Assembly: GCA_023663725.1 (NCBI GenBank)
Contig: JAMPGX010000005.1
Span: 177,301 to 241,300 of the forward strand
Direction: 5' to 3'
DNA: 64,000 nucleotides
From: a bacterium
GTDB lineage: Bacteria; Bacillota; Clostridia; Lachnospirales; Lachnospiraceae
Shown: piece by piece, positions 14,205-59,960 of the stretch
Numbering within the stretch: position 1 is the first letter of the stretch
How the letters are laid out: every line of letters starts with the position of its first letter
Notes under the pieces: model-generated
The model's input: only the letters and a program-made list of their open reading frames with translations
Told to the model about the DNA's origin: nothing
The model's database searches: none
Program-made: the position numbers and the translations under genes

Positions 14205-14422
14205 GCTTTTTATCAGTATCGAATGGTGTATATTGTATATTCCATAAGCAGGCTCTTTCGAGCCGTTGGTACTTAGCGAGGTCTGCCGAATTCATTCGGC
14301 ACGAGCTTAGTACCGCTACGGTGAGAACGAAGCGAGAGCGTGCCTGCGTTGGAATGTACAATGTACACCATGACACTGGCATAGTAACTAAGTTTTGCAT
14401 ATGCCTAAATCCAATAATATAG
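14205..14422 (+). repeat. 210-bp palindromic element, copy A
   Basis: This copy is an imperfect nested hairpin. The outer arms GTATATTGTATATTCC/GGAATGTACAATGTAC enclose GCAGGC/GCCTGC, then CCGT..GGTACT/AGTACC..ACGG, and a terminal TGCCGAAT/ATTCGGCA hairpin. Conserved unpaired tracts are TTAGCGAGGT, CGAGCTTAG and ACGAAGCGAGAGCGTGCC. It stands in tandem directly before copy B. An 81-residue frame through it is not conserved in copies B and D and is taken as non-coding. Confidence 0.85.
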
Positions 14423-14423
14423 T

Positions 14424-14640
14424 CAATTGCGAAACTGTCTTTTGCTAGTACCGAATTGTGTATATTGTATATTCCATAAGTAGGCTCTTGAAAAACGTCA
14501 GTGCTTAGTGAGGTTTTTTCGAGCTTAGCACTGTTACGTTTTTCACGAAGCGAGAGCGTGCCTACGTTGGATTATACAATGTGCCCAATGACACTTGCAC
14601 AGTAACCTGGTTTCGCAAACGCCTAATCAATCCAATAATA
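14424..14640 (+). repeat. 210-bp palindromic element, copy B
   Basis: Its ends are TTGCGAAACTG and CTGGTTTCGCAA. The apex stem is ACGT.CAGTGCT/AGCACTG..ACGT, different in sequence from copy A but fully paired. It is almost identical to copy D over its whole length. It ends (GCCTAA at 14621-14626) 33 nt before the padR start, immediately ahead of the ribosome binding site. Confidence 0.9.
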
Positions 14641-14659
14641 TCAGGAAAGGAGGAGTAAC

Positions 14660-14968
14660 ATGAACACACAGTTGAAAAAAGGCGCGTTGGAGCTGTGCGT
14701 GCTCTCTCAGCTGGTGAGCGGCGACAAGTACGGCTACGAACTGACGGAGCGCATCTCCGAGGAGATGTCTATCGCCAGCGGCACGCTGTATCCGATTCTG
14801 CGCAGGCTCAAGGAGGATGCCTATGTGACTACCTATCTGGTAGAGTCGGAATCCGGCCCAGCCCGCAAATATTACCAACTGACCCCAAAGGGCAGAGAGT
14901 ATCAGCAGACCATGCTGCAGGAATGGGAACAATTTGAGACGGCAGTGAACCGTCTGACCAGGGGATAG
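14660..14968 (+). CDS. PadR-family transcriptional regulator
   Basis: This 102-residue winged-helix protein has the PadR core: LKKGALELCVLSQL, SGDKYGYELTERI, SIASGTLYPILRRLKEDAYV and ARKYYQLTPKGREY. The size is that of the short PadR class. AAAGGAGGAG lies 6 nt before the ATG. The gene is preceded by two tandem copies of the palindromic element and followed after 56 bp by a DUF1700/DUF4097 protein, the common PadR-plus-envelope-protein pairing. In such pairs PadR usually represses its own operon in response to envelope or drug stress; that is inference here. Confidence 0.93.
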   Translation: MNTQLKKGALELCVLSQLVSGDKYGYELTERISEEMSIASGTLYPILRRLKEDAYVTTYLVESESGPARKYYQLTPKGREYQQTMLQEWEQFETAVNRLTRG

Positions 14969-15024
14969 TCAATTCCCTGCAAATATTTAAAATTGTCAAG
15001 ACAGTGAGGAAGGAGAATTTAGTT

Positions 15025-16227
15025 ATGACCAAATCAGAGTATATGAAGGAGCTGCAGGAGGGTTTACGCCGCTATAATGTGTCAGTGGAGAGGGAGATAC
15101 TGGAGGATTACGAGCAGCATTTTGCCGAGGGACTGGCGCATGGGCGCACGGAGGAGGAGATTATCGACGAGTTGGGCAGTATAGAGGATATGCTGCAGGA
15201 ATTCTCTGAGGATGATCTGAAGCAGGAGATAGAGAAAGTCGAGATGCAGGCCAGCCAGAGCAACAGCTATCAGCACTGCTATCGCGAGGTGGTGATAGAC
15301 GCACTGCTGGCAGATGTGGTGATCTGCGATGCAAAGGACGATCAGATTCGGGTTGACTATGAGAACAGGGGCAGCAAGGCGCAGAAGCTGAAGTACTATT
15401 TTTACCAGTATGACAAGGACGGCGTGTTTTATGCCGGAGTCAAGGAGAAAAAGGGCGTCGATCTGGGAACTGGCGCGCTGAGGGGACTGTTCTCGCAGAT
15501 GAATTGGTCCGGCGGCGATATTGATCTGCGGATCGAGATTCCGGCAGGCATCCCTGTTTTAAGAGTTCATACCACCAGCGGCGACCAGGAGATTCAGGAT
15601 ATCCGGATTGGAGAGCTGGAGGCACAGTGCTCCAGCGGTGATCTGGAGATTAAAGGCGCCGCCTGCGATAAGCTTTGTGCCAGAACCAGCAGCGGCGACA
15701 TGGAGGTATCTCGCGTTCATATGGATGCGCAGAAGGATACCAGTATAGAACTGTATACGACCAGCGGCAATATGGAGATAGGGGAGCTGGTCACATCCCA
15801 TATGTGTGTACAGACGGGCAGCGGCGACGTAGAGGCCAGGGAACTCCAGATCGGCAATCTGAAAATGCAGGCCGACAGCGGAGAGATAGGGCTGGAGCAT
15901 GTGCAGGGCAGCTTGATACGGCTGCAAACCGGCAGCGGAGAGATACGGGGCCGTGATATCCAGGGGGAGGAGCTGGCTGCGGGAGCCGGAAGCGGTGATG
16001 TGTCGATTCAGGCCAATGTCAAGACATATGATCTCAAGACGGGAAGCGGCGACATATGCGCAGATCTGGGAATGGTTGAGGGAGCTACCATTGAGACTCG
16101 CACCGCGAGCGGTGATGTGTCGCTGCGGGGCGATGAGATATCAGGCTTCCGTGACAGATACACCTATGGAAGCGGCGCCTGCCAGGTAAAAATCACGACC
16201 GGAAGCGGAGATATACGCGTCAGTTAA
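15025..16227 (+). CDS. DUF1700 + DUF4097 protein
   Basis: This 400-residue protein has an N-terminal helical DUF1700-like segment (TKSEYMKELQEGLRRYNVSV.., EEEIIDELGS, residues 1-75). From about residue 90 a DUF4097-like beta-solenoid is built of recurrent T/GSGD/GSGE steps (TTSGDQEI, SSGDLEI, GSGDVEA, GSGEIRG, GSGDICA). No signal peptide or clear transmembrane helix separates the parts, although family members often have one. I took the ATG with AGGAAGGAG upstream rather than an upstream GTG at 15004. It lies directly after padR, and the pair probably forms one transcription unit. The biochemical function of DUF4097 is not known. Confidence 0.85.
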   Translation: MTKSEYMKELQEGLRRYNVSVEREILEDYEQHFAEGLAHGRTEEEIIDELGSIEDMLQEFSEDDLKQEIEKVEMQASQSNSYQHCYREVVIDALLADVVICDAKDDQIRVDYENRGSKAQKLKYYFYQYDKDGVFYAGVKEKKGVDLGTGALRGLFSQMNWSGGDIDLRIEIPAGIPVLRVHTTSGDQEIQDIRIGELEAQCSSGDLEIKGAACDKLCARTSSGDMEVSRVHMDAQKDTSIELYTTSGNMEIGELVTSHMCVQTGSGDVEARELQIGNLKMQADSGEIGLEHVQGSLIRLQTGSGEIRGRDIQGEELAAGAGSGDVSIQANVKTYDLKTGSGDICADLGMVEGATIETRTASGDVSLRGDEISGFRDRYTYGSGACQVKITTGSGDIRVS

Positions 16228-16331
16228 TGTCCAAATATTTCAGATGCAACTGGCTCTTCCCGAAATGGATAAGATGTGCTATACTGACTGTATTCCTAAC
16301 AAAAGTCCAGACTCAGATGCGGGAGAGTACA

Positions 16332-17315
16332 GTGAATTATATTATTTTAGACCTGGAATGGAACCAGAGCAGCACCGGAAAGGAGCCGGAGGCGGCAACA
16401 TTGCCCTTCGAGATCATTGAGATCGGTGCGATCAAGTTAAATCATGAGAGGATCATGATCAGCGAGTTCAGTCAGCTGATTCGGCCCACCGTATATCATC
16501 GGATGCACAGGATCACCAGCAGACTGATTCATATGCGCATGGAAGAGCTGGAGAGAGGGAAACCTTTTACTCAGGTGGCATCAGAGTTCCTGCAGTGGTG
16601 TGGGGACGACTATATCTTTTGTACCTGGGGTCCTCTGGACCTGACGGAGCTTCAACGCAACTTCCGATACTACGGTATGGAGCCGCTCGCCAGAGGGCCG
16701 ATAGCTTTTCTGGACGTTCAGAAGCTATTCAGCATTGCCTATGAGGACCGCAAGAGTCGGCGGGCGCTGGAATGGGCGGTGGACTATCTGGAGATCGAGA
16801 AGGATATTCCCTTTCACAGGGCTTTCAGCGATGCCTATTATACCGCCAAGGTGCTGGCTTCGATTGAGGATGCAGGGGTACTTAAAAATGTGTCCTATGA
16901 TGTGTTTATGCCCCCCTCCTGTCGTGAGGAGGAGGTCAGGGTGCAGTTTGACACCTATTTTAAGTATATTTCTCGTACTTTTCCGGACAAGCAGGCGGCG
17001 TTGACAGATCGGGAGGTCAGCTCCAGCAAGTGTTATCTGTGCCACCGCAACCTGCGCAAGAAGGTGAAATGGTTTACGCCCAACGGACGTCACTATTATT
17101 GCGTTGCCTTTTGCGAGAAGCACGGTTACCTCAAATGTAAGAATCGCATTCACAAGACGGAGGATGGGCAGGTATATGTGGTGAAGACGACTCGCTTTAT
17201 CTCACCTGAGGAGATGGAGAAACTCGTTGAGCGTCGCGACCGTGCCCGTAAGCTGCATAGCCGTTCGCGCAAGGCATCTGATAAGGCGGCCGGAATAAGA
17301 GGATATATTTCATGA
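16332..17315 (+). CDS. DnaQ-like 3'-5' exonuclease with C-terminal Cys cluster
   Basis: This 327-residue protein has the DEDD exonuclease signature: ILDLEWNQ (Asp, Glu), the FEIIEIGAIKL segment, TWGPLDLTEL, and HRAFSDAYYTAKVL (His, Asp). Residues about 235-290 hold CYLCHRNLRKK, YYCVAFCEKHGYLKC, a zinc-ribbon-like arrangement not part of the usual exonuclease fold. I chose GTG at 16332 because GGGAG is 6 nt upstream; the frame extends to 16227, but that extension has no ribosome site. An extended -10 (TGCTATACT, 16277-16285) precedes it. It overlaps the next gene by 4 bp. The substrate, DNA or RNA, is undetermined. Confidence 0.8.
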   Translation: MNYIILDLEWNQSSTGKEPEAATLPFEIIEIGAIKLNHERIMISEFSQLIRPTVYHRMHRITSRLIHMRMEELERGKPFTQVASEFLQWCGDDYIFCTWGPLDLTELQRNFRYYGMEPLARGPIAFLDVQKLFSIAYEDRKSRRALEWAVDYLEIEKDIPFHRAFSDAYYTAKVLASIEDAGVLKNVSYDVFMPPSCREEEVRVQFDTYFKYISRTFPDKQAALTDREVSSSKCYLCHRNLRKKVKWFTPNGRHYYCVAFCEKHGYLKCKNRIHKTEDGQVYVVKTTRFISPEEMEKLVERRDRARKLHSRSRKASDKAAGIRGYIS

Positions 17316-19099
17316 AGAATAAGCTATTGTCAACAACCGTCAGGCGCAGGCATATCTGCGTCTGGCTGGCGTGTCTGGCTCTGCTTTGCGGCGTTTGTGA
17401 GCCTGCTTACGCGACATCCAGACAGGAGGTTATCCAGGCGCAGCAGGAGATGCCTGTCGAGAGCAATGAGATTCCGGGCTGGCCAGTGGGACCGACGGTC
17501 ACGGCGGAATCTGCTATTCTGATGGAAGCCGAGACCGGCGCTATCCTGTACGCCAAAAATATTCACGCCAGGCAGTATCCGGCCAGTACCACCAAGATAC
17601 TGACCACATTGATAGCCATGGAGCAATGCTCTCTGGACGAGTGGGTCACTTTTTCCAAAGACGCCATCTATGACACGCCCTCCGACAGCAATCATATTGC
17701 CATGGACGTGGGACAACAGCTGACGATGGAGGACTGCCTGAATGCAATCCTGATTCGTTCGGCCAATGAAGTCTCATTTGCCGTGGCGGAGCATATCACC
17801 GGCACGAGCTGGCAGGATTTTGCGGAGATCATGAACAGGCGGGCCCAGGAGCTGGGATGCGTCGATTCGCATTTTGTCAATCCCAACGGCCTGCCGGATG
17901 AAAACCACTATACCTCCGCCTATGATCTGGCGATGATAGGCAGGGCTTTTTTTGCCAATGAGGTGCTGTGCAGGATGTCCATGACTCCGAGATTGCATAT
18001 CCTGCCCAACGATCATATGCCCTATGAAAAATTGGAGAATTCCAAAATTGAGATGCTGCCGGGAAAAACCTATGCCTATGACGGACTGATCGGCGTCAAG
18101 ACAGGATATACCAATGCGGCCCGAAGCACGCTGGTATCCTGCGCGGAGCGGGACGGCCTGAAGCTGATCTGCGTCGTGCTCAAGGACGAGGCGCCGGCGC
18201 AATATGAGGACACTATTGCCCTATTCAATTATGGTTTTGGCAACTTTGCAAGAGTCAATGTCTCACAGGTGGAGACAAAATACAATATTGAAGGTACAGG
18301 TTTTTTCTACGAGCAGCATGACATATTTGGCGATTCACGGCCCTTGCTGTCTCTGAACCAGGATGCATATATTGTGATGCCTCGAACAGTGGATTTTGAT
18401 GATATTGCGTCTGTCATCAACTATGACGCGGCGGATGAGGGACAGGCTGCCGTCATTGAGTACAGCTATCAGGGAGTGGCGCTGGGCAATGTCTCCGTCG
18501 ATCTGGCGGCGCCTAAGGAGGGCTATAGCTTTGAAAGCGGTATGCTGGACGGGGAGGAGAAGGAGGCGGCGAACAAGGAAAGTCCGACAGTTATCTTTGT
18601 CAATGTGATAAAAGTGCTCAAGTGGGTGGGAATTGTTGTGGCAGCCTTATTATTTCTTGGAGTGGCTCTGCATTTTCTCAAGAATTTCCGATTTCCTGCG
18701 CGGCGTACCAATACAAGGCGGAGCTGGGAGAAGGACCGCCGCAGATATCATCATGAGGAATACGAGGACAGCTCAGAGGATGATGCCAGACAACAGCATC
18801 GGCGGAGAGTGAGAGAGGCGCGCCGCAGACAGGCCCACCTGGAGAGTGAGGAGGACTTTGAGTCGACATATGAGCAGCAGCACCGGCAGAGAGTGAAGGA
18901 GGCGCGCCGCAGACAGGCCCGCATGGAGTATGAGGAGGACACTGAGCCGACGTTTGAGCAGTTGCGCAGGCGGAGCGCGAGAGAGGCGCGCCGCAGGCAG
19001 GCCCGCATGGAGTATGAGGAGAGCCCTGAGCTGACATTTGAGCAGCTGCGCAGGCAGCAGGCCAGAGAGTCACGTCACCGGCGGCAAAAAGACAGATAA
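17312..19099 (+). CDS. D-alanyl-D-alanine carboxypeptidase (DacF/PBP5-like) with charged C-terminal tail
   Basis: This 595-residue protein has a signal peptide (about 1-35) and a low-molecular-mass penicillin-binding protein domain. The catalytic motifs are STTK (Ser92-Lys95), SAN (Ser150) and KTG (Lys263). It trims the terminal D-Ala from peptidoglycan stem peptides outside the membrane. Unlike most relatives it ends with a transmembrane helix (about 432-456) and about 140 residues of Arg/Glu-rich sequence made of 28-residue repeats containing EARRRQAR. The tail would be cytoplasmic if the enzyme is outside. The start overlaps the exonuclease stop (ATGA), indicating translational coupling. 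Confidence 0.93.
   Translation: MKNKLLSTTVRRRHICVWLACLALLCGVCEPAYATSRQEVIQAQQEMPVESNEIPGWPVGPTVTAESAILMEAETGAILYAKNIHARQYPASTTKILTTLIAMEQCSLDEWVTFSKDAIYDTPSDSNHIAMDVGQQLTMEDCLNAILIRSANEVSFAVAEHITGTSWQDFAEIMNRRAQELGCVDSHFVNPNGLPDENHYTSAYDLAMIGRAFFANEVLCRMSMTPRLHILPNDHMPYEKLENSKIEMLPGKTYAYDGLIGVKTGYTNAARSTLVSCAERDGLKLICVVLKDEAPAQYEDTIALFNYGFGNFARVNVSQVETKYNIEGTGFFYEQHDIFGDSRPLLSLNQDAYIVMPRTVDFDDIASVINYDAADEGQAAVIEYSYQGVALGNVSVDLAAPKEGYSFESGMLDGEEKEAANKESPTVIFVNVIKVLKWVGIVVAALLFLGVALHFLKNFRFPARRTNTRRSWEKDRRRYHHEEYEDSSEDDARQQHRRRVREARRRQAHLESEEDFESTYEQQHRQRVKEARRRQARMEYEEDTEPTFEQLRRRSAREARRRQARMEYEESPELTFEQLRRQQARESRHRRQKDR
18812..19080 (+). repeat. 84-bp tandem repeats in the carboxypeptidase tail
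   Basis: GAGGCGCGCCGCAGRCAGGCC-like blocks recur at 18815, 18899 and 18983, with a diverged one at 19067, an exact 84-bp period (28 codons). The repeat keeps the frame and encodes alternating basic and acidic segments. Confidence 0.85.
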
Positions 19100-19114
19100 C
19101 AGGAGAGAGATAAG

Positions 19115-19759
19115 ATGCGTTTGCGGAATATAACTGGCTCCAGAGAGATCATTGCAGAGAGCGCCTACGTGGTGCATGACGAGCAGAGCCATCGGGGAGC
19201 CTGGCGGGAGCTCCTGGGAGATGACAGTCCCATTCATATCGAGATTGGCATGGGAAAGGGAAAGTTTATCTACACCATGGCCCGACAGCATCCGGATATC
19301 CATTATATCGGAATTGAAAAATATTCCAGCGTGCTGCTGCGGGCCATTCAGAAGATGGAGGGGGAAGAATTGCCCAATCTGCGTTTCATCCGGATGGACG
19401 CGGAGCAGATAGCGAGTGTGTTTGCCCCTGGGGAGGTGGACCGGATCTATCTGAATTTCTCCGATCCCTGGCCCAAGGACAGACATGCGGCGCGCAGACT
19501 TCCCTCGCGCCAGTTCCTGGCCAGATATGACGCGATCCTGAAGGCGTCCGGAGAACTGGAGTTCAAGACAGATAACAGGGAACTGTTCGATTTTGCGGTG
19601 GAGGAATTGGAACCGGCGGGCTGGAAAATTAAGGTCCTTACCTATGATCTGCACAGCGACGCGGTATTGATGGAGGGAAATGTCATGACGGAGTATGAGG
19701 AAAAATTCTCCGCCATGGGCAATCCCATCTATAAATATATTATTTATCGGGAAAAATAA
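19115..19759 (+). CDS. trmB: tRNA (guanine-N7-)-methyltransferase
   Basis: This 214-residue SAM methyltransferase is of the TrmB family. The motifs are IHIEIGMGKGKFI (SAM-binding loop), YIGIEKYSSV, LNFSDPWPKDRHAARRL (the diagnostic FSDPWPK block) and LEFKTDN. It methylates G46 in the tRNA variable loop. The start is supported by AGGAGAGAG 7 nt upstream. It follows the carboxypeptidase by 15 bp and precedes trxA by 45 bp, likely in one operon. Length and motifs are normal. Confidence 0.95.
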   Translation: MRLRNITGSREIIAESAYVVHDEQSHRGAWRELLGDDSPIHIEIGMGKGKFIYTMARQHPDIHYIGIEKYSSVLLRAIQKMEGEELPNLRFIRMDAEQIASVFAPGEVDRIYLNFSDPWPKDRHAARRLPSRQFLARYDAILKASGELEFKTDNRELFDFAVEELEPAGWKIKVLTYDLHSDAVLMEGNVMTEYEEKFSAMGNPIYKYIIYREK

Positions 19760-19804
19760 GTCGAGAGAAGCCGGCGGATGCCGGACAGACAAGGAGGAAA
19801 AACG

Positions 19805-20116
19805 ATGCAGTTTACGACAACCAATTTTGAGACGGAAGTATTGCAGGCACAGGGTCCTGTGCTGGTGGATTTCTACGCGGACTGGTGCGGGCCGTGCAAG
19901 ATGATGGCTCCGCTGGTAGAGCGTATGGCCGAGAAGTACGCCGGACAGATCAAGATCGGCAAGCTGAATGTTGAGGATAGTATGGAGATCTCTGACAAAT
20001 ACAATGTGAGGAATATCCCTACGTTCATCTTCTTCAAGGACGGAAAGCCGGCCGCCACCTATGTGGGCGGAATGTCCGCCACGGATCTGGAGGAGAAGAT
20101 CAAGGCATTTATCTGA
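19805..20116 (+). CDS. trxA: Thioredoxin
   Basis: This 103-residue thioredoxin has the active site WCGPC at about residues 28-32, the cis-proline segment NIPTFIFFKDG, and the terminal YVGG..L helix. It is a cytoplasmic dithiol reductant for ribonucleotide reductase, peroxidases and repair enzymes. AAGGAGG is 7 nt before the ATG; the longer frame from 19778 has no ribosome site. It is tightly placed between trmB and the YitT gene. Confidence 0.96.
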   Translation: MQFTTTNFETEVLQAQGPVLVDFYADWCGPCKMMAPLVERMAEKYAGQIKIGKLNVEDSMEISDKYNVRNIPTFIFFKDGKPAATYVGGMSATDLEEKIKAFI

Positions 20117-20144
20117 AGCATTACTTTTGACGGGGGATGTGAGA

Positions 20145-21032
20145 ATGGAAGCGCTTAAGGATAAGCGGCTGCTGGCCTATGAGGGCAGGCGCACTCTGGT
20201 GGCAATGTTTGGAGCGTTGGTCTATGCCGTAGGCACCAACTTGTTTATTGTGCCGTCGGGCCTGTACAGCAGCGGAGTCATGGGCCTGTGCCAGATACTG
20301 CGCACCGTGCTGGTGGAATATCTGTATTTGAACCTGGGCAGCACGGATATCGCCGGTATGATTTACTATGTGATCAATATTCCCATCTTTATTGTCGGAT
20401 ATCGGAAAATGGGCAAAAAGTTCCTGCTGAAAACCCTTGTCTGCGTCACTGTGATGTCAGGCGCCATGGCCGTCATTCCGGTGACGCAGATCGTGGAGGA
20501 TACCATGATGGCCTGTGTGGTCGGCGGAATTATCTGCGGAGCAGGCGTGGGAATCCTGCTGCGCATGGGAGCCTCCGGCGGCGGTATGGATATTGTGGGC
20601 ATGATTCTGGTGAAATGGAAGCAGGATTTCAGCGTAGGAAAGGTCACGCTGATCATGAATCTCGTGCTCTACAGCGCCTGCGTATTCCTCTTTGACGTGG
20701 AGACGGCGCTCTATTCGGTGATCAATGCGGCGGTGTATTCCGTGGCCATGGACAGGCTCCATGCCCAGAACATCAATGTGGAGGTCAATATTATCACGAA
20801 GATCAGCTCGCAGGAGCTGGAGAGGGAAGTGTTCTCGGAGTTGGGGCGTGGCATCACCAAATGGAAGACCATGGGCGCATACACCCATGAGGAGTCCCAC
20901 ATCCTCTATATCATGATGTCCAAATACGAGGTGCATCAGCTGAAAGCCATCGTCCATAAATACGATCCCCAGGCGTTTATCGTTATTAACGAGGGAGTAC
21001 ATGTGGAGGGAAATTATCTGAAAAAGTTATAG
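20145..21032 (+). CDS. YitT family membrane protein (DUF161/DUF2179)
   Basis: This 295-residue protein has five or six hydrophobic helices in the first 200 residues (GALVYAVGTNLFIVPSGLYS is the typical first helix of YitT proteins; GASGGGMDIVGMIL is the conserved loop). A cytoplasmic DUF2179 domain (about 220-295, ending EGNYLKKL) follows. The start was taken at the ATG preceded by GGGGGATGTGAG; the longer frame overlaps trxA and is not supported. The function is unknown, though the family is sometimes linked to transport. Convergent with the next gene with only 5 bp between the stops, and no terminator hairpin was seen. Confidence 0.9.
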   Translation: MEALKDKRLLAYEGRRTLVAMFGALVYAVGTNLFIVPSGLYSSGVMGLCQILRTVLVEYLYLNLGSTDIAGMIYYVINIPIFIVGYRKMGKKFLLKTLVCVTVMSGAMAVIPVTQIVEDTMMACVVGGIICGAGVGILLRMGASGGGMDIVGMILVKWKQDFSVGKVTLIMNLVLYSACVFLFDVETALYSVINAAVYSVAMDRLHAQNINVEVNIITKISSQELEREVFSELGRGITKWKTMGAYTHEESHILYIMMSKYEVHQLKAIVHKYDPQAFIVINEGVHVEGNYLKKL

Positions 21033-21037
21033 CCGCT

Positions 21038-22522: not shown

Positions 22523-22665
22523 GGGTTCCCGTACCTCCTGCAAGCTCTTTGCTTTTCTATCCGTATTGGACGTTTCACGCCCATCATCTCTATCATACCG
22601 AAAAAGAAAAGTGAAATCAAGATATTGAGGCATGAAATCTTTATAAATCTTTTAGAGATCGGCTA

Positions 22666-22694
22666 TTGATTTATGTTTTGGGAATCCCTATAAT
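22666..22694 (+). promoter_or_regulatory. Promoter of ftsH
   Basis: TTGATT (22666-22671) and TATAAT (22689-22694) are separated by 17 bp. The leader to the ftsH start is about 120 nt, with no strong hairpin recognised. Confidence 0.75.
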
Positions 22695-22821
22695 AGAATA
22701 CATGTGGACTTATACTGACAAACGCTGAAATCATCCGATTTCTGTCTGGTACATGTCGCATGATCGGGCGATATGCGCCGGACGAAAAGGATAATTTATC
22801 CGTAAATACAGAAAGGATTTT

Positions 22822-25074: not shown

Positions 25075-25085
25075 GCGGTATAGGA

Positions 25086-39379: not shown

Positions 39380-39591
39380 TTAGGCGTTTGCGAAACCCGG
39401 TTACTGTGCGAGTGTCATTGTGCATATGGCATATTCCAACGCGGGCACGCTCTCGCTTCGTTCTCACTGTAGCGGTACTAAGCTCGTGCCGAATAAATTC
39501 GGCAGACCTCGCTAAGTACCGACAGTTCGAAAGAGCCCACTTATGGAATATACCATATGCACAATTCGGTACTGGCAATAAGCAATTTTGA
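39380..39591 (-). repeat. 210-bp palindromic element, copy C
   Basis: It has the same orientation relative to the downstream gene as the other copies. The outer stem GTGCATATGGTATATTCC/GGAATATGCCATATGCAC is perfect. GTGGGC/GCCCGC replaces GTAGGC/GCCTAC of copies B and D. The apex is CTGT..CGGTACT/AGTACCG..ACAG with a TGCCGAAT/ATTCGGCA tip. Open frames on both strands are a by-product of the palindrome. Confidence 0.9.
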
Positions 39592-40997: not shown

Positions 40998-41043
40998 GAA
41001 AAGAACACCTTCAGGGTTTATTCCTGAAAGTGTTCTTTTTTTG
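40998..41043. terminator. Terminator of the nitrilase-like gene
   Basis: The AAGAACAC..TTCAGG/CCTGAA..GTGTTCTT stem is flanked by runs of A on the left and T on the right. On the minus strand it follows the gene ending at 41081 and has a T-rich tail. Confidence 0.8.
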
Positions 41044-41080
41044 GTTGGGGACTTTTTTCACAGCCCCCACAGCTTCTCTC

Positions 41081-50485: not shown

Positions 50486-50511
50486 ATTCAATATAGATTA
50501 TCTTATTATAT

Positions 50512-50544: not shown

Positions 50545-50579
50545 CTTCGGTTAATAATTAAAGTTTGTGTTCGCAGGTA

Positions 50580-50610: not shown

Positions 50611-50666
50611 ATGCTCATGAAGCGCTTCACAGGTAACCATAAACCGTTTTTCAGAGAGGTGGAGGC

Positions 50667-52022: not shown

Positions 52023-52032
52023 GGGTGAAGCA

Positions 52033-52063
52033 AGCAGGCGGTCGCATAGAGCGACCGCCTGTC
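52033..52063. terminator. Hairpin between convergent genes
   Basis: The GCAGGCGGTCGC/GCGACCGCCTGT stem is strong, but neither side has a T-run. It possibly insulates the two convergent transcripts. Confidence 0.5.
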
Positions 52064-52083
52064 GGCATATGTCAGGGGAACTC

Positions 52084-52953: not shown

Positions 52954-52955
52954 GC

Positions 52956-54008
52956 TTAATTCTCCTCTCCGACGGTCACGTCATAATTCTGGTCTGTGTT
53001 TTCCCCCTGATCGGGATTCACAAAGGAGTCGATAGGGTAGATAGTCTGCATATTTCCGTTGGGACTCTCAATGATGACTTTCAGCTCCGGCAGCACCTTT
53101 TCCATGGCCTCATAGAACATCCTCTGCCTGGTGACGGTGGGATTCTTGACATATTCCTCGTACATGGCGTTAAAGCGGGCTACCTGAGCGGTCGCCTCGT
53201 TGATGCGCTCTGTCTTCTGTGCCTCCGCGTCCTTGATGATGCCGTCCACTCTGGCCTGAGCCTTGGGAATCTGCTCATTGCGGTATTTGTTGGCATTGTT
53301 CAGCGCTGTCTCCTTGCCTTGCTTGGCCGTCTCCACCGCTTTGAAAGCCTCCATGACCTCCACTGTGGGTGGTTCGGAATCCTGAATCGTGATATTGACG
53401 AGCTGCAGTCCCAGATCCTGCTGGTCAAGCTGTTCAATGATCATGGATTTGATGGCGGCCTGAATCTCATTCTTGCCGGTGGTCAACACATCATCCACGG
53501 TATAGCTGCTGATCACGGTTCGGATGCAGCTCTGGGACACGTTCTTTAAGATGCTCACCGGCTCGCGGGAGGCGTAGAGCGCCTTGACCGGATCGGAGAA
53601 GCGGTACTCCACGAAGAAGTCCACGTTCACGAAATTGTAATCCGAGGTGATCATCAGGGACTCGTCCGCGCTGGATGTGTTATAGTCGCTGTCGTAGCCG
53701 ATGGAGAAGCCCTGAATCGTGGTGTTTACCTTGCGCACCTGTTGAATCAGCGGAATCTTGAAATGCAGGCCCGGTTCTGTGACTGCCTGCGCTTTTCCCA
53801 GGGTGATCAGCACGGCCTGCTCCTGCTCCCTGATCTGGTAGGTGGAGCCGAACACCAGCACTGCTGCCACGATAACCAGGGCGCATATACCGATGATCTT
53901 GCCGGTGGAGCGAAGGGGCATCGCTGTTTTGCTGCCGTTCTTCTGCCAGTTACCGTCCGGCCCCATGGTCTGAAATCCGTTTTGCCTGTTGCGGCGGGAA
54001 TCCTTCAT
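52956..54008 (-). CDS. hflK: HflK-like SPFH/band-7 protein
   Basis: This 350-residue protein has a polar N-terminus of about 35 residues, one transmembrane helix (IIGICALVIVAAVLVFGSTY) and a band-7 domain (YQIREQEQAVLITLGKAQAV, VNVDFFVEYRF). An Ala/Glu/Lys-rich helical region follows, with a short acidic C-terminus. This is the HflK layout, although the usual Gly-rich N-terminus is shorter. AAAGGAAG precedes the ATG, and the promoter is at 54090-54118. It is expected to form a hetero-oligomer with HflC on the outer face of the membrane. Confidence 0.9.
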   Translation of the reverse strand: MKDSRRNRQNGFQTMGPDGNWQKNGSKTAMPLRSTGKIIGICALVIVAAVLVFGSTYQIREQEQAVLITLGKAQAVTEPGLHFKIPLIQQVRKVNTTIQGFSIGYDSDYNTSSADESLMITSDYNFVNVDFFVEYRFSDPVKALYASREPVSILKNVSQSCIRTVISSYTVDDVLTTGKNEIQAAIKSMIIEQLDQQDLGLQLVNITIQDSEPPTVEVMEAFKAVETAKQGKETALNNANKYRNEQIPKAQARVDGIIKDAEAQKTERINEATAQVARFNAMYEEYVKNPTVTRQRMFYEAMEKVLPELKVIIESPNGNMQTIYPIDSFVNPDQGENTDQNYDVTVGEEN

Positions 54009-54089
54009 ACGTCATACTTCCTTTCTGTTGGTCATTGCGGGGGCTCTCCCGCTCCCGCAATGAAGCGTTTATGTTCTGTGTATGGACTC

Positions 54090-54118
54090 ATTATAGTATA
54101 AAACAGCTCTAACTACAA
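54090..54118 (-). promoter_or_regulatory. Promoter of hflKC
   Basis: On the minus strand TTGTAG (54118-54113) and TATAAT (54095-54090) are separated by 17 bp, about 80 bp before hflK. Confidence 0.75.
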
Positions 54119-54188
54119 TGGTGGAAGTTGCACGTTGGAGAGAGGTAAGGTGCGCACTGTTTTTCTTTTCTGATTTTTCATATTTTAC

Positions 54189-54217
54189 TTGTATTATGGT
54201 CACAAAATGAATATACT
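54189..54217 (+). promoter_or_regulatory. Promoter of the toxin-antitoxin locus
   Basis: TTGTAT (54189-54194) and TATACT (54212-54217) are separated by 17 bp, 60 bp before the antitoxin start. Confidence 0.75.
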
Positions 54218-54229
54218 ATATAGGTAAGA

Positions 54230-54248
54230 AAGTGAGAATTTCTCACTT
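54230..54248 (+). promoter_or_regulatory. Probable antitoxin operator (perfect dyad)
   Basis: AAGTGAGA/TCTCACTT are perfect 8-bp arms around ATT, placed just downstream of the predicted transcription start. This is the expected position for autorepression by an AbrB-type antitoxin. Confidence 0.65.
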
Positions 54249-54276
54249 ATAGTCAAAGCGCAAAGGAGATGATACT

Positions 54277-54537
54277 ATGTTGGCTGAATTGCGGCAGAAA
54301 GCTCAGATTACTATTCCCAAGGAAATCATTGTCAAGCTCGGTCTGTCAGAGGGTGACAAACTGGAGATCTTTGAGAAAGACGGTTCTATCTGCATCATGC
54401 CGGTGGCTGTCTATCCTAAGAAATACCTGAATGAACTTCGGGAAGAAATCAGCGATATCAAGACAAAAATTGCATCCGGAGAACATCCCGTTTTTGACAG
54501 TGTGGATGCTCTGTTTGACAAATTGGAGGCAGAATAA
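54277..54537 (+). CDS. AbrB/MazE-type antitoxin
   Basis: This is an 86-residue protein. Residues 1-45 form a SpoVT/AbrB swapped-hairpin DNA-binding domain (ELRQKAQITIPKEIIVKLGL, SEGDKLEIFEKDGSICIMPV). The rest is a helical, acidic tail that would wrap the toxin. AAAGGAGATG precedes the ATG. The stop overlaps the next start (TAATG), the normal coupling in type II toxin-antitoxin operons. The antitoxin is intact although the partner is broken. Confidence 0.9.
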   Translation: MLAELRQKAQITIPKEIIVKLGLSEGDKLEIFEKDGSICIMPVAVYPKKYLNELREEISDIKTKIASGEHPVFDSVDALFDKLEAE

Positions 54538-54768
54538 TGGCATATGAGTTTACTTTTACCTCCCGCTTTCAAAAACACTTTAAGAATCTTACTGCCCAAG
54601 GCTGAAAATCCTTATCACCCATCGCTACGAACCAAGCGCATCCAAGGGACTACAGATCTTTTCGAGTGCAGTGTCAATATGAACATTCGTATTATCTGGT
54701 ACTACGAAGGCGACAAGATGATTATTCTGGTGGATATAGGACATCACGACATATTAAAGCAGGTTTAG
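54537..54768 (+). pseudogene. Disrupted RelE/ParE-superfamily toxin
   Basis: The frame starting at the coupled ATG encodes MAYEFTFTSRFQKHFKNLTA then QG and stops. In the +1 frame the remainder continues AENPYHPSLRTKRIQG, TTDLFECSVNMNIRIIWYY and ends HHDILKQV, the C-terminal two thirds of a RelE/YafQ-type mRNA interferase. About a dozen central residues are missing, consistent with a small out-of-frame deletion. A 74-codon frame beginning at 54544 covers this fragment but starts out of register and is not the original gene. The toxin should be inactive. Confidence 0.75.
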
Positions 54769-54902
54769 CACATCTCCGATATCTCCATTCACACAGACAG
54801 ACCTTTCCCTGATTTCTTCAGGCACATAAGCCTTCTGGGTGTTTATGCAGACATACCCCGCCTTTGGATTCTCCGCTGTCATCCGCCAGAATGGACTGGA
54901 TG

Positions 54903-57005
54903 TCAGCCCCTGTTATGCTCCTCCACATTTCTGGTAAATCCCACATAGGTCACGATGAAGTAGACCAGGTAAATCCCGAAAAACAGGGCGATGCTCTGCA
55001 GGAAAAAGCCGCTCACCGATGTCGGGACGCCGGTCATCTTCACAAAGGCATTGCTGACGAACAGGACCATCCTGCCGCTGATGAGGATCGCCAGGAACGC
55101 CGGACAGAGATAGTAGGCTGCAAGCTGTTTACCGATCAGCCGCCGGATACTGCTCCGGTCCAGGCCCAGCTTGGCCAGTACGTCATAGCGGAACTTGTAT
55201 TTGGCGGAGTCGCTGAGCTGCTGCACCGACAGCACTGTCATGGCCACGCAGACGAAGACAAGCCCGATATAGAACAGAGGGATGATCAGGGAGCTCAATA
55301 TATATTGCATCTCAGGGATGATATTGGCCCGCACCAGGCAGAGCCCGACATAGGAGATGATATTGTCAGAGCCGGTGCAGAGCTCGTTATCCGCCTTGCC
55401 CCCTCCGTCCAGATAGGAATACAGAGTTTCCAGACGGTTTTCCCTGTCGTACACCTCATCCAGATCATCCTGAAGCCCCAGGGGGACGGGGCTTTGCACA
55501 GCGGCAACCAACTCGCTGTAGTAGGGCTCCATCCGCCCCAGCACGGCGTCCGGCACCACGATCAGATAGTCGGCGCCGTTATGCCCGTCCTGGGAAAAAG
55601 GGTCTCCCACGATTCCGGCGCAGGTCAGCGTTCCCTGTCCGGAGGCATCGGGGAACTGTAGCTCCATCCCTGCTCTCAACACGCCCTGGTAGAGTCTGGG
55701 CTTGATCTGAAACAGGTATTCCCCGTCGTCGAGAGCGATCTCCTCATAGCCCAGCATGGCCCGCAGGCGGTTGTAGTCCGATATGCCCATATAAGTGTCA
55801 TACGAGTAATAGATGTACTCCTGAGATAACATTTCTTTGATCTTGGTCTGATTCGGGCTGCCGTCCGCGTTTTGGTAGATCGTTCCCCACTCAGGCAGAT
55901 GGGTCAGTACCCAACTGTTGGCCCTGATTTCTCTGTCCGTATAGATATGGTAGGTATAGTACTGCGCATCGATTCCGCGGCTGGTCAGCAGCTCCTTTGC
56001 CTCCGCGAAATCCTCCTGCACGTCCCCGCTGTAGATCTGGATGTCAAAGGGAAATTTATCCTCCAGCACCGTGTTCTCATAGGTGCTGAACATCAGGGCG
56101 ATGGAGGCGCCCATCAGCGCCAGAGTAAAGAGGGAGGTCAGCGTCCCCATCGTGAACTGCATCGTGCGTATCTTGGAGGCGAACTGCCGCAGCAGGAACA
56201 GACTCTGTCCCCGATAGACGGCGCTTCCCTTTTTCCGCACATAACAGATAAGCCAGGCCGAGAGTCCGGTGTAAAACAGATATATCGTGAGCACCAGCCC
56301 TGTCAGGAACATCAAGATTTCCACAGCGTTGGATAATCTGTTAAAGATCGCCCAGAACAGCAGGATAAACAGGATGGCCAGGGGCAGGAGCAGGCGCTTG
56401 GCGCCCTCATGCTTTTCCCGTATCTCCTCATTCTGCCGTTTGGCGTTCATTAGAGCCTGGATATTCATCCTGCGGAGCTTATGCCTGCACCGGATCAGAG
56501 CCAGCAGATAGCAGCCACCGTAACAGAGCACCGTCATCAGCAGTGTGCTCTGACTGAAGGAGAAGCGCAGGTGATATTCCATCCTGACCATCGAAAAGAG
56601 GATGGAGAAAAGGAGCTGCCGCACCAGCACGCCCAACGCGCAGCCCAGCAAAAAGGCGATGCAGCCCAGCAGGACATTTTCCCGAATATACAGCCTGGAG
56701 ATGTCCCGCTTTTTCATGCCCAGCAGCAGATAGATGCCAAACTCCGTGCTCCGCTTTTCCAACATAAAGCGCACCATATAATTGATGAGCCAGGCCACGA
56801 TCAGCACAATGAAAAAGGTGGCGACCCCGATCATCACGGCCATCATGTCCGCGTCCTGCAGGCTGAAATACTGGGCCAGGTCATTCTGAAAAAAGAGGCT
56901 GCTGGCAGCGTACATCAGCGCTGTGACCACGGTCATGGTCAGGATATACACCAGATAATCTCTGGCGGAGCGTTTCATATTGCGAAGGGCCAGTTTACTC
57001 AGCAT
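54903..57005 (-). CDS. FtsX-like permease of a BceAB-type ABC transporter
   Basis: This 700-residue membrane protein has the BceB layout: about ten helices with two FtsX domains and a large extracellular domain of about 200 residues (about 320-530). The N-terminus MLSKLALRNMKRSARDYLVY is typical. It overlaps the ATPase gene by 11 bp. With the kinase and regulator upstream it forms a detoxification module of the type that senses and removes cell-wall-active peptide antibiotics. Specificity cannot be inferred. Confidence 0.92.
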   Translation of the reverse strand: MLSKLALRNMKRSARDYLVYILTMTVVTALMYAASSLFFQNDLAQYFSLQDADMMAVMIGVATFFIVLIVAWLINYMVRFMLEKRSTEFGIYLLLGMKKRDISRLYIRENVLLGCIAFLLGCALGVLVRQLLFSILFSMVRMEYHLRFSFSQSTLLMTVLCYGGCYLLALIRCRHKLRRMNIQALMNAKRQNEEIREKHEGAKRLLLPLAILFILLFWAIFNRLSNAVEILMFLTGLVLTIYLFYTGLSAWLICYVRKKGSAVYRGQSLFLLRQFASKIRTMQFTMGTLTSLFTLALMGASIALMFSTYENTVLEDKFPFDIQIYSGDVQEDFAEAKELLTSRGIDAQYYTYHIYTDREIRANSWVLTHLPEWGTIYQNADGSPNQTKIKEMLSQEYIYYSYDTYMGISDYNRLRAMLGYEEIALDDGEYLFQIKPRLYQGVLRAGMELQFPDASGQGTLTCAGIVGDPFSQDGHNGADYLIVVPDAVLGRMEPYYSELVAAVQSPVPLGLQDDLDEVYDRENRLETLYSYLDGGGKADNELCTGSDNIISYVGLCLVRANIIPEMQYILSSLIIPLFYIGLVFVCVAMTVLSVQQLSDSAKYKFRYDVLAKLGLDRSSIRRLIGKQLAAYYLCPAFLAILISGRMVLFVSNAFVKMTGVPTSVSGFFLQSIALFFGIYLVYFIVTYVGFTRNVEEHNRG

Positions 57006-57789
57006 GGGACGCCTCCTCCCCGCCGATCTCTCCCCCAGTCAGGGACAGCACGTCCAGAATCTCCTGGAGAAACACTTTGCGGCTCCTGTCTCCGCGAACC
57101 AGCTCATGGAAGATTCGTCCGTCCTTCAAGAACAGGATGCGCCCGCAGTAGCTGGCGGAGAAGGCATCGTGTGTCACCATGAGGATCGTGGCTTCCATGG
57201 TGCGGTTCAGGTCCGCGAAGGTCTGCAGCAGCGTCTGGGCGGAGCGGGAGTCCAGAGCTCCGGTGGGCTCGTCGGCCAGCAGGAGCTTGGGGCGGTTCAC
57301 CAGCGCTCTGGCACAGGCGCAGCGCTGTTTCTGCCCGCCGGACACCTGGTAGGGGAATTTGCCGCGGATATCCTCGATGCCCAGCAGACGCAGGATATCG
57401 TCGCAGCGTGCTTGAATGGCCTTTTTGCCGGAGGCTTTCGCACCACCCTGCAGCGTCAGCGCCAGGAGGATATTTTCCTCGATAGTGAGAGTGTCCAGCA
57501 GATTGTACTCCTGGAACACAAAGCCCAGATTGTCTCTGCGAAAATCCGACAGAGCGTTCTCGGACAGCTCGGTGATGTCGATATTCTCATAGTAGATGTG
57601 TCCGGAGGTCACCCGATCAATGGTGGCCAGCATATTGAGCAGCGTAGTCTTTCCGGAGCCGGAGGCGCCCATGACGCCCACGAATTCTCCCCGGTCCACG
57701 CCGAAGCTGACCCGGTCCACCGCCTTGGTCACATTCGAGACGTTGCCATAATATTTTTCCACATCGCATATTCGGATATAGTCCTGCAT
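56995..57789 (-). CDS. ATP-binding protein of a BceAB-type ABC transporter
   Basis: This 264-residue MacB/BceA-class ATPase has Walker A GASGSGKTT, Q-loop VFQEY, signature VSGGQKQRCACARAL, Walker B LLLADEPTGALD and switch VTHD. The start was placed at 57789, preceded by AGAGGG; an open frame reaches 57822. The C-terminal extension of about 40 residues is somewhat longer than usual. It is encoded directly before the permease and after the kinase, separated from the latter by 165 bp. Confidence 0.94.
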   Translation of the reverse strand: MQDYIRICDVEKYYGNVSNVTKAVDRVSFGVDRGEFVGVMGASGSGKTTLLNMLATIDRVTSGHIYYENIDITELSENALSDFRRDNLGFVFQEYNLLDTLTIEENILLALTLQGGAKASGKKAIQARCDDILRLLGIEDIRGKFPYQVSGGQKQRCACARALVNRPKLLLADEPTGALDSRSAQTLLQTFADLNRTMEATILMVTHDAFSASYCGRILFLKDGRIFHELVRGDRSRKVFLQEILDVLSLTGGEIGGEEASHAE

Positions 57790-57954
57790 AGTTCCCTCTT
57801 TTCCGCACATGGCTTTTATCAATGATTTTATTGTAGCGGATTGGCGCTGCCTTTCCTATAGAGATAGATAGAAGTTATCTTAAGATTTCGTAAGATATCC
57901 TAAGACAACTCGAGCGACCAAAAACCTGAGCGGATGTGGCGGTGTGGAAAATGC

Positions 57955-59052
57955 TTAACGCACATCGACAATATGCGTGCTGAGAGGGAACTCCAGGCAC
58001 AGCCTGGCGCCTGCGCCGTACTCCGAGGTGGCGGACAGCCCGATGCCCAGCCTGTCACACAGCTTGCGGCACAGATACAGGCCCATGCCGGTAGAGCGCT
58101 GATTGTCTCTGCCGTTGCTGCCGGTGAAGCCCTTTTCAAAGATGCGGGCGAGTTCTTCCGGGCGGATGCCGATGCCGTTGTCCTCGAAGGTCAGGAGCAC
58201 GCCATTGTCCTGCCGCTCGGTGCGAATCTGTAACAGAGGATGCTCTCCCCGGTATTTTACGCTGTTTAGCAACAACTGATTCAGGATGAAGGCGATCCAT
58301 TTCCCGTCGGTGTAGACCGTATCCGGACAGTCGGTGTGGGCCTGGACTCCGTGCCGGATGAGCAGCAGCCTGTTCCTGACCAGCACCTCGCAGACGACAT
58401 CCTCCAGCCTCGTCTCCCGAATCAGATAATCCTTGTAGACCTCCTCCGAGCGGGCGTAGTACAGCACCATATCCACGCAGTTCTCGATCCGTTGACTCTC
58501 CAGGCGGACGGTGAGATAATCCGCCTGCAGGGACGGAGCGTCTGTCTGCCCATAGCGGGCGTCGTCAGGTTCGGAAGGCGGAGCGGAAGAAGTGGCACTG
58601 GCAGCGGGCTCTCCCCGCCGATTGTCGCACAGCAGCGCGATGCCAGCGATGGGGGCCTTGATCTCATGCACCCAGCTCTCGATATATTCCTTATATTCCC
58701 GCCGTTCGTCCTCAATCTGTCGAATCCGTTCAATACAGGATTTGTTGGAGCGCAGGATCATATCTTTATACAATCTGTCCTCCAGACGGTAGGAATCGGG
58801 AATCAACTCGCCCAGCAGATATCTCTGGTCCACATTGTTCAGGATGTGTTCCACCTCCTGAAAGAATTTCCTCCGCTGAAGATAGGTGGCAAGCATCCAG
58901 CCGGACAGGACCAGCAGCCACACGGTCAGCAGCAGGAGGATATTGGCGCCGCCATATCCGGTGATATGCAGAAAGGCGGCCGCCAGGCACATACACACCA
59001 GATGGAGCAGCAGCAACATTCCTCTGTCTTTTACGAAATCCTTAAGCTTCAT
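57955..59052 (-). CDS. BceS-like intramembrane-sensing histidine kinase with linker insertion
   Basis: This is a 365-residue kinase. Two closely spaced transmembrane helices (about 12-60) with almost no external loop are followed by a dimerisation helix with the phospho-acceptor in ESWVHEIKAPIAGIALL. The ATPase has N-box ILNQLLLNSVKY, G1 DNGIGIRPEE and G2 STGMGLYL. Between the phospho-acceptor helix and its second helix there is an Ala/Ser/Pro-rich stretch of about 35 residues (EPAASATSSAPPSEPDD) absent from most relatives. The ATG overlaps the regulator stop (ATATGA). Kinases of this kind sense through the associated BceAB transporter. Confidence 0.92.
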   Translation of the reverse strand: MKLKDFVKDRGMLLLLHLVCMCLAAAFLHITGYGGANILLLLTVWLLVLSGWMLATYLQRRKFFQEVEHILNNVDQRYLLGELIPDSYRLEDRLYKDMILRSNKSCIERIRQIEDERREYKEYIESWVHEIKAPIAGIALLCDNRRGEPAASATSSAPPSEPDDARYGQTDAPSLQADYLTVRLESQRIENCVDMVLYYARSEEVYKDYLIRETRLEDVVCEVLVRNRLLLIRHGVQAHTDCPDTVYTDGKWIAFILNQLLLNSVKYRGEHPLLQIRTERQDNGVLLTFEDNGIGIRPEELARIFEKGFTGSNGRDNQRSTGMGLYLCRKLCDRLGIGLSATSEYGAGARLCLEFPLSTHIVDVR

Positions 59053-59717
59053 ATGCGATATCCCATTCCTCTTTTGGTCTCGATAAAATGCTCTGCCCCG
59101 ACGGAGCATAGCTTTTCCCGCAGCTTGGCGATATGGACGCTCAGCGTGTTGTCGTCGATAAAGATATGATTCTCCCACAGCTGCTCGATCAGATCCATCC
59201 GTGACACAAAAGCCCCCGGATGCTGGAACAGTAGATGCAGGAGCTTCATCTCGTTCCTGGTCAGGTCGATGCGCTGTTCCCCGCACAGGAGGCGGCATCC
59301 CGCGATGTCCAGCGATACGCCGTTGTGGGTAAGCAGGGTGGTCCGGCCCTGCGCCGCGCTGCGGGTGCGCTTGAGCACGGCGGCAATTCGGGCCAGGAGC
59401 ACGGGAGCCTGGTAGGGCTTTGTGATATAATCATCCCCGCCCCGATACAGAGCGTCCACCTCGTCCATGGAGTCGGTGCGACCGGTCAGGAAGATCACCG
59501 GCACGTCAGTCTGCTGGCGTAGCTGTGTGCAGAGCTCAAAGCCGGAAATCTCCGGAAGGTTGACGTCCAGCAGCACCAGATCAGGCGCAGCCCCCACCAC
59601 CTGACGGACCAGGTCCTGGAACTCCTCCGGGGCCGTCACGCGGTAGAGAGCGTTTTCCAGCAGGAGCTTCAACTCCCGACGGATGAGCGGTTCATCCTCG
59701 ATGAGAAATATATGCAT
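59049..59717 (-). CDS. OmpR-family response regulator (BceR-like)
   Basis: This is a 222-residue regulator. The receiver has acidic IEDEP, phospho-acceptor VLLDVNLPEISG and Lys in DYITKPYQ. The OmpR-type winged helix (LTRNEMKLLHLLFQHPGAFV, DDNTLSVHIAKLREKL, IETKRGMGYRI) lies at about 125-222. The start at 59717 follows AAAGGAATG; upstream codons to 59789 run into a 210-bp palindromic element. It overlaps the kinase gene. It is presumed to activate the BceAB genes downstream. Confidence 0.95.
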   Translation of the reverse strand: MHIFLIEDEPLIRRELKLLLENALYRVTAPEEFQDLVRQVVGAAPDLVLLDVNLPEISGFELCTQLRQQTDVPVIFLTGRTDSMDEVDALYRGGDDYITKPYQAPVLLARIAAVLKRTRSAAQGRTTLLTHNGVSLDIAGCRLLCGEQRIDLTRNEMKLLHLLFQHPGAFVSRMDLIEQLWENHIFIDDNTLSVHIAKLREKLCSVGAEHFIETKRGMGYRI

Positions 59718-59756
59718 GATGGCAGCATTCCTTTCTGCGATTTGGATGCTTCTATT

Positions 59757-59960
59757 ATTAGGCGTTTGCGAAACCAGATTACTGTGCAAGTGTCATTGGG
59801 CACATTGTATAATCCAACGTAGGCACGCTCTCGCTTCGTGAAAAACGTAACAGTGCTAAGCTCGAAAAAACCTCACTAAGCACTGACGTTTTTCAAGAGC
59901 CTACTTATGGAATATACAATATGCACAATTCGGTACTAGCAAAAGACAGTTTCGCAATTG
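59757..59960 (-). repeat. 210-bp palindromic element, copy D
   Basis: It is almost identical to copy B (about one difference seen over the inner 150 bp). Ends are TTGCGAAAC and GTTTCGCAA. It lies 41 nt before the response regulator start in the same orientation relative to the gene as every other copy. No gene was seen between 59961 and 60171. Confidence 0.9.

Follow-up and report, generated by a model that had tools for sequence, protein, structure and literature searches.

Miniature transposable elements with a covarying hairpin core, inserted beside Shine-Dalgarno motifs in a Lachnospiraceae genome

Here we describe a family of short palindromic elements in a bacterium of the Lachnospiraceae (NCBI GenBank assembly GCA_023663725.1), the positions at which they insert and the hairpin at their centre, starting from four copies in a stretch of 64,000 nucleotides of contig JAMPGX010000005.1 (positions 177,301 to 241,300 of the forward strand). 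This whole stretch is called the window, and plain coordinates refer to it. The first-pass annotation of the window, made by a model from the sequence, had claimed that the four copies fold into one nested hairpin whose stems change in a compensatory manner around invariant unpaired tracts, and had read this as selection on the structure of RNA or single-stranded DNA. All four copies are present, and the stem pairs and fixed tracts that it quoted are found in the sequence.

Copy A occupies about 14195-14407 on the plus strand, with an approximate, degenerate left end and a right end GCCTA at 14403-14407, and runs straight into a target duplication, beyond which lies copy B. The latter (14420-14625, plus strand, 206 bp) has the ends TAGTCAATTGCGAAAC and GTTTCGCAAACGCCTA, and the left copy of its target duplication, AATCCAATAATA (14408-14419, plus strand), has its partner at 14629-14640. 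The covarying hairpin of copy B, on the plus strand, has a 22-bp outer arm, the left side of which (14455-14476) pairs with 14568-14589, and an inner core hairpin (14474-14570) that runs from CCATAAG to CGTTGG and includes the side hairpin GCGAGAGC. Downstream on the same strand, the Shine-Dalgarno (SD)-like sequence AAAGGAGG (14646-14653) precedes the gene of a PadR-type regulator (14660-14968), whose start codon is 34 bp from the end of the element. The other two copies lie on the minus strand. Copy C extends from 39381 to about 39600; its far end is degenerate, while its right end, at 39381, is of the type of the left inverted repeat (IRL) of the insertion sequence described below and points, across 28 bp, at the start of a gene on the minus strand. 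Copy D (59759-59964) precedes a response-regulator gene, with the start 41 bp off, and is bordered by a 10-bp target duplication, CTTCTATTAT, with the gene-side copy at 59749-59758 (given on the plus strand) and its partner at 59965-59974. The core of copy D at 59814-59910 (minus strand) was placed by correspondence with copy B, and those of copies A and C were located by a covariance-model search at 14242-14352 (C45:191542-191652) and 39436-39546 (C45:216736-216846). Since copies B and D are 99% identical, the four copies amount to about three independent observations. Behind copies B, C and D lie mutually unrelated genes, for the PadR-type regulator, a protein without a Pfam match and the response regulator.

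The fold was computed for copy B alone, and the nested hairpin of copies A, C and D is taken from the alignment. As RNA, copy B folds at -76.6 kcal/mol against a shuffled mean of -47.1 (standard deviation 4.1; z -7.2); folded as DNA it reaches a z of -6.6, and its opposite strand as RNA -4.6. No reading frame of 120 amino acids (aa) lies inside any of the window copies. Just 5′ of copy A, two smaller pieces were seen by eye: a short palindrome of two inward-facing left ends at about 14055-14131, and, at 14130-14178, a piece like an end of the 143-bp element described below.

The element family and its probable partner insertion sequence

The host genome is 3.6 Mb long in 49 contigs. With copies A and B as the query it gave 64 matches, 40 of the 118 candidates being scored, and the core pattern CGRAGCGARAGCGTGY occurs at 105 sites with at most one mismatch, the reversed pattern at none. 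One hundred of these 105 core motifs were listed, and every count out of 100 below refers to them. Five contig ends stop within the outer part of an element (L042 at the end of C8, L039 at the end of C28, L043 at the start of C10, L046 at the start of C25 and L047 at the end of C5), so the assembly breaks where copies lie, and the genome is likely to contain more than 105 of them.

The full element, mostly 205-228 bp long, begins with about TAGRCAATTGCGAAAC and ends with GTTTCGCAAACGCCTA. These ends form terminal inverted repeats of 16 bp, and both are present with at most four mismatches, at a total length of 196-256 bp, in 73 of the 100 copies. Target duplications measure 8-14 bp, with a mode of 11, and reach a score of at least 7 in 27/100; when left flanks were paired with the right flank of another copy, none of 1979 pairings reached that score. 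Because of its ends, its duplications and the partner described below, the family belongs to the miniature inverted-repeat transposable elements (MITEs), that is, to the non-autonomous type; the length of the copies leaves no room for a transposase gene. Copy B had no match in plasmid or phage collections in a blastn search at the 'distant' setting.

Elements without the core exist as well. The same 16-bp ends are found on a palindromic family of 143 bp that lacks it (host-genome loci L133, L135, L136, L137, L055 and L021) and on some smaller elements. Among the copies that do carry the core, several (L081, L024, L097, L100, L126 and others) have extra perfect palindromes within their arms, of about GTGTTACGGTTTGCAACCGTAACAC or GGGTTGCTAGCAACCC. 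In one copy (L016, C17:26160, minus strand), the left and right middle arms are of different types and the middle stem is broken; this chimera suggests recombination between copies.

The same 16-bp ends also border a 1.75-kb insertion sequence (IS) in the host genome, which was found by way of the end patterns and pieced together from the ends of contigs C33 and C44, overlapping by 55 bases. Its IRL, TAGGCGTTTGCGAAAC (C44:1649-1664), lies on the upstream side of the transposase gene and is identical to the common MITE right end over all 16 bp. The transposase, a reading frame of 485 aa on C44, matches the Pfam domain DUF772 (E 4.4e-11, 43.1 bits, above the cut-off of 23.1) and, below the cut-off of 23, DDE_Tnp_1 (E 7.4e-4, 19.8 bits); the best curated NCBIfam model, IS1182, gives 78 bits and does not reach its cut-off of 270. 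When 33 transposases are aligned, D147, D288, Y420, R423, E427 and K434 are invariant, and the spacing of the last four fits the Y-R-E-K signature of IS4/IS5-like enzymes. AlphaFold with these 33 sequences gave a poor model (mean predicted local distance difference test score, pLDDT, 56.4), and solved structures offered no convincing match (best E 0.16).

Within the genus, a transposase match at E 1e-30 or better is present in 9 of 138 genomes, the host included. Relatives of the transposase lie in 126 stretches of named genomes. Of these, 80 loci were kept, many of them labelled Lachnospiraceae or genera of that family, and the same ends are found in relatives. The flank at the IRL was readable at the needed length in 66; not all are independent, as one genome can contribute more than one locus and the flank of L190 is identical to that of L219. 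Five copies of the IS in Mediterraneibacter massiliensis differ by 0-4 of 1728 bases and each stands before a different SD-like site, which looks like a sign of recent movement. From sequence comparison, the IS is a plausible autonomous partner of the MITEs, and this gene-carrying element probably moves them in trans.

The end of contig C44, considered as the partner IS, is actually a piece of another repeat that abuts a MITE-end piece. In the window, a 52-base piece of another repeat lies at 41016-41067; the same 52 bases are found at or near the ends of contigs C22, C20, C15, C5, C17, C31 and C44, and the piece is probably another insertion sequence that was collapsed in assembly.

Landing position beside the Shine-Dalgarno motif

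Gene starts were called by a rule of our own, an SD-like motif followed by a reading frame of at least 60 aa (100 aa for the context of cores in other genomes), in place of a gene finder. At a background of 9.5% (plus strand) and 3.3% (minus strand) of window positions, 66 of the 100 MITE copies lie 15-45 bp before such an SD motif and reading frame. The right end faces the gene in 52 of them and the left end in 14 (p 2.8e-6). Past the right end, an SD-like hexamer starts at 14-18 bp in 34 of these 52 copies and is missing in five. The IS has the same habit in a stricter form: an SD-like hexamer stands 12-22 bp outward of the IRL in 63 of 66 flanks, with first positions mostly at 15-18, and at the right inverted repeat (IRR) in only 2 of 72 (Fisher p 6e-33).

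The target duplications make this position exact. Among 59 two-ended IS copies, 44 have duplications with a score of at least 6, of 11 bp in 23 cases, 12 bp in 12, 10 bp in six, 13 bp in two and 9 bp in one. A perfect duplication of at least 8 bp is present in 34 IS copies, 32 of which have an AGGR further out. From the duplication to the start of this AGGR the distance is exactly 7 bp in 27 of the 32, and 1, 2, 4, 6 and 6 bp in the others; two of the off-spacing copies, L191 and L206, have an additional AGG at 7. The MITEs with a perfect duplication have AGGR at 7 bp in 12 of 13, the exception, at 16 bp, being window copy D. Six of 14 core-less elements with these ends have a duplication, and the spacing is 7 in L135, L137 and L021 and 6 in L136; for L133 and L055 the script gave none, and AGGT was seen by eye at 7.

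The start codons of the IS flanks lie at spread distances of 23-35 bp, so the motif, not the start codon, is the ruler. By the strict rule a start codon with a long frame follows in 45 of the 66 IS flanks, and there are AGGAG-type sites without a convincing start (for example L156, L165, L188, L198, L201 and L213), so the DNA motif may be enough. In the window, AAAGGAG is followed by a start and frame in 7 of 17 cases, a small sample that the IS exceeds with 45 of 63 at real gene starts; this preference is no proof that anything besides the DNA motif is recognised. Targeting of promoters or transcription starts was considered and rejected, as the base composition upstream of 65 of the 66 SD-adjacent copies contains no positioned -10 box.

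Could such a pattern arise if the elements inserted at random and harmful insertions were then removed by selection? Insertions before an SD motif spare both the gene and its ribosome-binding site, and some copies do lie elsewhere. Yet a spacing of 7 bp to AGGR holds in 27/32 IS copies and 12/13 MITEs although the duplications vary in length, the polarity of the IS is strict (63/66 against 2/72), and selection would have no reason to pick single base pairs. We regard random insertion as very improbable. The exact spacing and the polarity are unlike purifying selection alone and are common to the IS and the MITEs, so the landing rule is best understood as a property of the transposition system; we conclude from the flanking sequences that this system appears to use the SD motif as its landing mark, and the transposase itself may recognise the motif.

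Several observations pull in the other direction. By our rule 34 of the 100 MITE copies are near no start, and 14 of the 66 that are have the reverse orientation; window copy D departs from the 7-bp spacing. Three of the 66 IS flanks (L163, L200 and L217) are without the motif, L200 having it at the other end, and in 21 of the 66 the strict rule finds no start codon with a long frame. Among the core-less elements with these ends, 8 of 14 showed no duplication.

A hairpin core that covaries within and between genomes

From the 100 host copies, 73 were aligned, and alignment A1 comprises 72 of these after removal of C48:31099 (minus strand), whose left half is unalignable. Covariation was judged by shuffles, by slid partners and by parsimony counts. 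The inner hairpin, which is made up of the 22-bp arm, a 3-bp arm and a 10-bp middle stem, is paired in 98.3% of 2519 cells. Both sides have changed in 18 of its 35 pairs, giving 120 double-changed cells against 27.8 in shuffles; no shuffle out of 500 was as high on any of five measures, and sliding the partner abolishes the signal. The 16-bp terminal repeats behave differently: they are paired at 73.3%, against 72.8% when shuffled (94 of 500 as high), and on the other four measures they are matched by 11 to 52 of 500 shuffles. Terminal repeats as the only cause of the hairpin are thus ruled out, because the covariation sits in the inner hairpin.

The first-pass annotation had named two observations that would count against its claim, a match to a MITE family whose hairpin came from terminal repeats alone and stem changes that went uncompensated. 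The elements are indeed of MITE type, and terminal repeats alone do not explain their hairpin; pairing is kept at 98.3%, and the chimera L016 has its broken middle stem. The annotation had mentioned neither the IS nor the position beside SD motifs.

The core extends well beyond the host genome. With copies A and B, blast found matches in 18 of 61 relatives, all within the genus. Seven loci of other species supplied eight cores, which align with eleven of the host's own to one fold, for which RNAalifold gives 30 pairs, 20 of them with double changes. A covariance model built from these 8 + 11 cores finds the core, at a cut-off of E 1e-4, in 95 of the 138 genus members, a count that takes in the host. 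In a sample drawn from the whole order, 146 genomes of 92 genera, there are 10 matching genomes; they belong to 6 genera, each within the family of the host. At most 27 (genus) or 26 (order) candidates were scored per genome, so that copy numbers are lower bounds; 27 scored candidates were reached in 18 of the listed genus genomes.

Alignment A4 takes in 31 of the 35 loci L236-L270, leaving out L236, which is from the host genome, and L263-L265. Its 39 cores are paired in 96.2% of cells and show double changes in 26 of 30 pairs, with 194 double-changed cells against 39.2 in shuffles (0/500 as high); A4 was fitted to the covariance model and leans to it, and its statistics ignore phylogeny. The compensatory change that had been claimed from four copies therefore stands far above shuffles both in the 72 host copies and in the 39 cores from other genomes. 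Unpaired features recur across species: 38 of 39 cores have a U.U within CTTAG/CTTAG, most have an asymmetric internal loop in which GCGAGGT faces CGAGC, and the side loop can be read as GNRA (GAGA, GAAA, GGAA, GGGA or GCAA) in 38 of the 39. In the host copies the side loop is GAGA in 88/100 and GAAA in 12/100, the search pattern having admitted little else. The tracts described as invariant are near-fixed, since the cores of other species show some variation in them.

The data support selection on structure. Whether the structure matters as RNA or as DNA is a matter on which the evidence is divided, and the earlier reading is upheld in part. When changes from Watson-Crick pairs to G.U or A.C are counted by parsimony on the tree of 73 copies, the 22-bp arm shows 35 inferred changes that lead to G.U and 16 that lead to A.C (p 0.011), which favours a plus-strand RNA for that arm; the terminal repeats give 41 to G.U and 65 to A.C (contrast with the 22-bp arm, p 6e-4). 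By orientation, terminal branches show G.U:A.C ratios of 18:7 in right-facing copies, 3:3 in left-facing ones and 3:4 in the remainder, all small counts.

Against an RNA stand several facts that would suit a hairpin acting as DNA, cruciform or single-stranded, in which one arm templates the other during replication or repair. In the cross-species core G.U (11) and A.C (9) are equally rare among 1164 cells, so that RNA is not favoured there. Many double changes lack intermediates; one pair is T-A in 59 of 73 copies and G-C in 11, and neither of the one-step intermediates TC and GA occurs. Clustered changes have perfected an arm in two copies (L022 and L127), the chimera L016 carries its broken stem, and several copies contain nested palindromic inserts. 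Templating of this kind, however, should perfect the arms, and the internal loop GCGAGGT/CGAGC (in most cores) and the U.U (in 38/39) are kept, not perfected; the side loop reads as GNRA in 38/39 through five different sequences; G.U exceeds A.C in the 22-bp arm and not in the terminal repeats; and the terminal repeats, although likewise inverted, have not been homogenised. We hold the DNA hairpin to be unlikely, if a serious contender, and a folded RNA to be somewhat likelier.

The carriers of the core differ. Outer arms vary, and 20 copies from two genomes (G032 and G113) have other ends, of about AATGTCATTTAGTTTAGAAATGG in several; one of these carriers (L272) has an 11-bp duplication. Since the core occurs in elements with other outer arms, it is a module with its own history. 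The same fact would fit a hairpin that is itself mobile and inserts into the loops of others, with the MITEs as its present carriers only. In G032, carriers L274, L277 and L278 lie by eye within terminator-like hairpins and form nested palindromes, apical modules differ among copies, and the distantly related IS1272 is reported to target stem-loops (PMC5678879). No empty carrier, duplication at the core border or enzyme turned up, in searches none of which was aimed at these, and we think a self-moving core rather doubtful compared with a structured passenger of transposons.

A riboswitch-like or protein-binding leader, spread by transposition and controlling its downstream genes as a regulon, would account for the position of the elements within 5′ leaders, for their orientation bias and for a structured, conserved core. 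It sits poorly with the unrelated genes behind window copies B, C and D, and with the IS and the core-less 143-bp element using the same type of site, which means that the position stems from transposition. In other species, moreover, where the context was computed for 38 of the 39 cores, they are often outside 5′ leaders and many are near gene ends and not starts, a finding that also counts against the core being a leader RNA in general. The comparison with Rfam that the first-pass annotation had proposed found no family at gathering score in the window. A regulatory RNA of this sort is improbable. One sub-threshold Rfam match, to mir-71 at 14483-14552 (23.7 of 50 bits, E 0.021, in the scanned stretch 14000-14680), is taken as chance.

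Known systems and the proposed explanation

Small repeats of a comparable kind are well known in other bacteria. BOX, RUP and SPRITE of Streptococcus pneumoniae, Correia and ERIC are likewise small, numerous, mostly intergenic elements with inverted-repeat ends that can form hairpins in transcripts, and BOX is modular, with ends that resemble those of an IS; the available parts of the sources describe no fixed distance to the SD sequence for any of them (PMC3049150, PMC10969869). The present core differs from these in that its structure is conserved between genera of a family and that elements with different ends carry it. By its best curated model and its DUF772/DDE domains, the transposase is akin to the IS1182 family, though its 78 bits are far under the cut-off of 270. 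Among site-directed transposons, Tn7 likewise inserts at a set place, and it does so at one site that is read through a separate targeting protein; here the mark is a short motif before many genes, and one transposase gene is seen. Tn7 is cited as targeting attTn7 (PMC10969869). IS1272 is described as targeting and replacing stem-loops without target duplications (PMC5678879), whereas the present IS makes duplications of about 11 bp beside SD motifs and so does not follow that pattern. With the structured RNAs of Rfam the core has in common covarying stems, near-fixed loops and a GNRA-like side hairpin, albeit without any hit in the window that reaches a gathering score. Insertion directed by SD sequences is not described in the accessible parts of PMC5678879, PMC10969869, PMC3049150 and PMC3196728, and no element that targets SD sequences is named in the literature searched, the coverage of which left most subscription papers and ISfinder outside.

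Taken as a whole, we consider it probable that the MITEs are moved in trans by a DDE insertion sequence that uses the SD motif as a ruler, and that their core is a separate structured module. The 1.75-kb IS, through its DDE transposase and the shared 16-bp ends, would mobilise the MITEs and place the near edge of the target duplication 7 bp before AGGR and the far edge 9-13 bp further out. The IRL, which corresponds to the MITE right end, would normally face the motif. An insertion would then join the 5′ leader of the gene, leave the ribosome-binding site in place and fold on itself. The inner core would be a module of its own, maintained by virtue of its fold in many Lachnospiraceae genomes and in carriers with different ends, and most likely a stretch of leader RNA that folds on itself and leaves the nearby SD sequence free; on the same terms, the element would be transcribed with the gene and might affect its mRNA. 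The fuller picture, in which a DDE system of fixed polarity and base-pair precision lands at SD motifs and creates self-folding 5′ leaders, and in which its passengers carry a structured RNA module that is maintained across the Lachnospiraceae and common to more than one transposon family, is one towards which we lean with some reserve.

Should the SD motif indeed be the landing mark, insertion sites of low cost would be available at many genes, as the gene and its ribosome-binding site are spared there and the leader of the mRNA is rewritten. This would go some way towards explaining why a single genome tolerates about a hundred copies. It would also provide a natural series of insertions for asking how folded leaders affect gene expression in gut bacteria, and the core itself can be counted as a new candidate for a structured RNA, one that covaries strongly and whose taxonomic range is defined.

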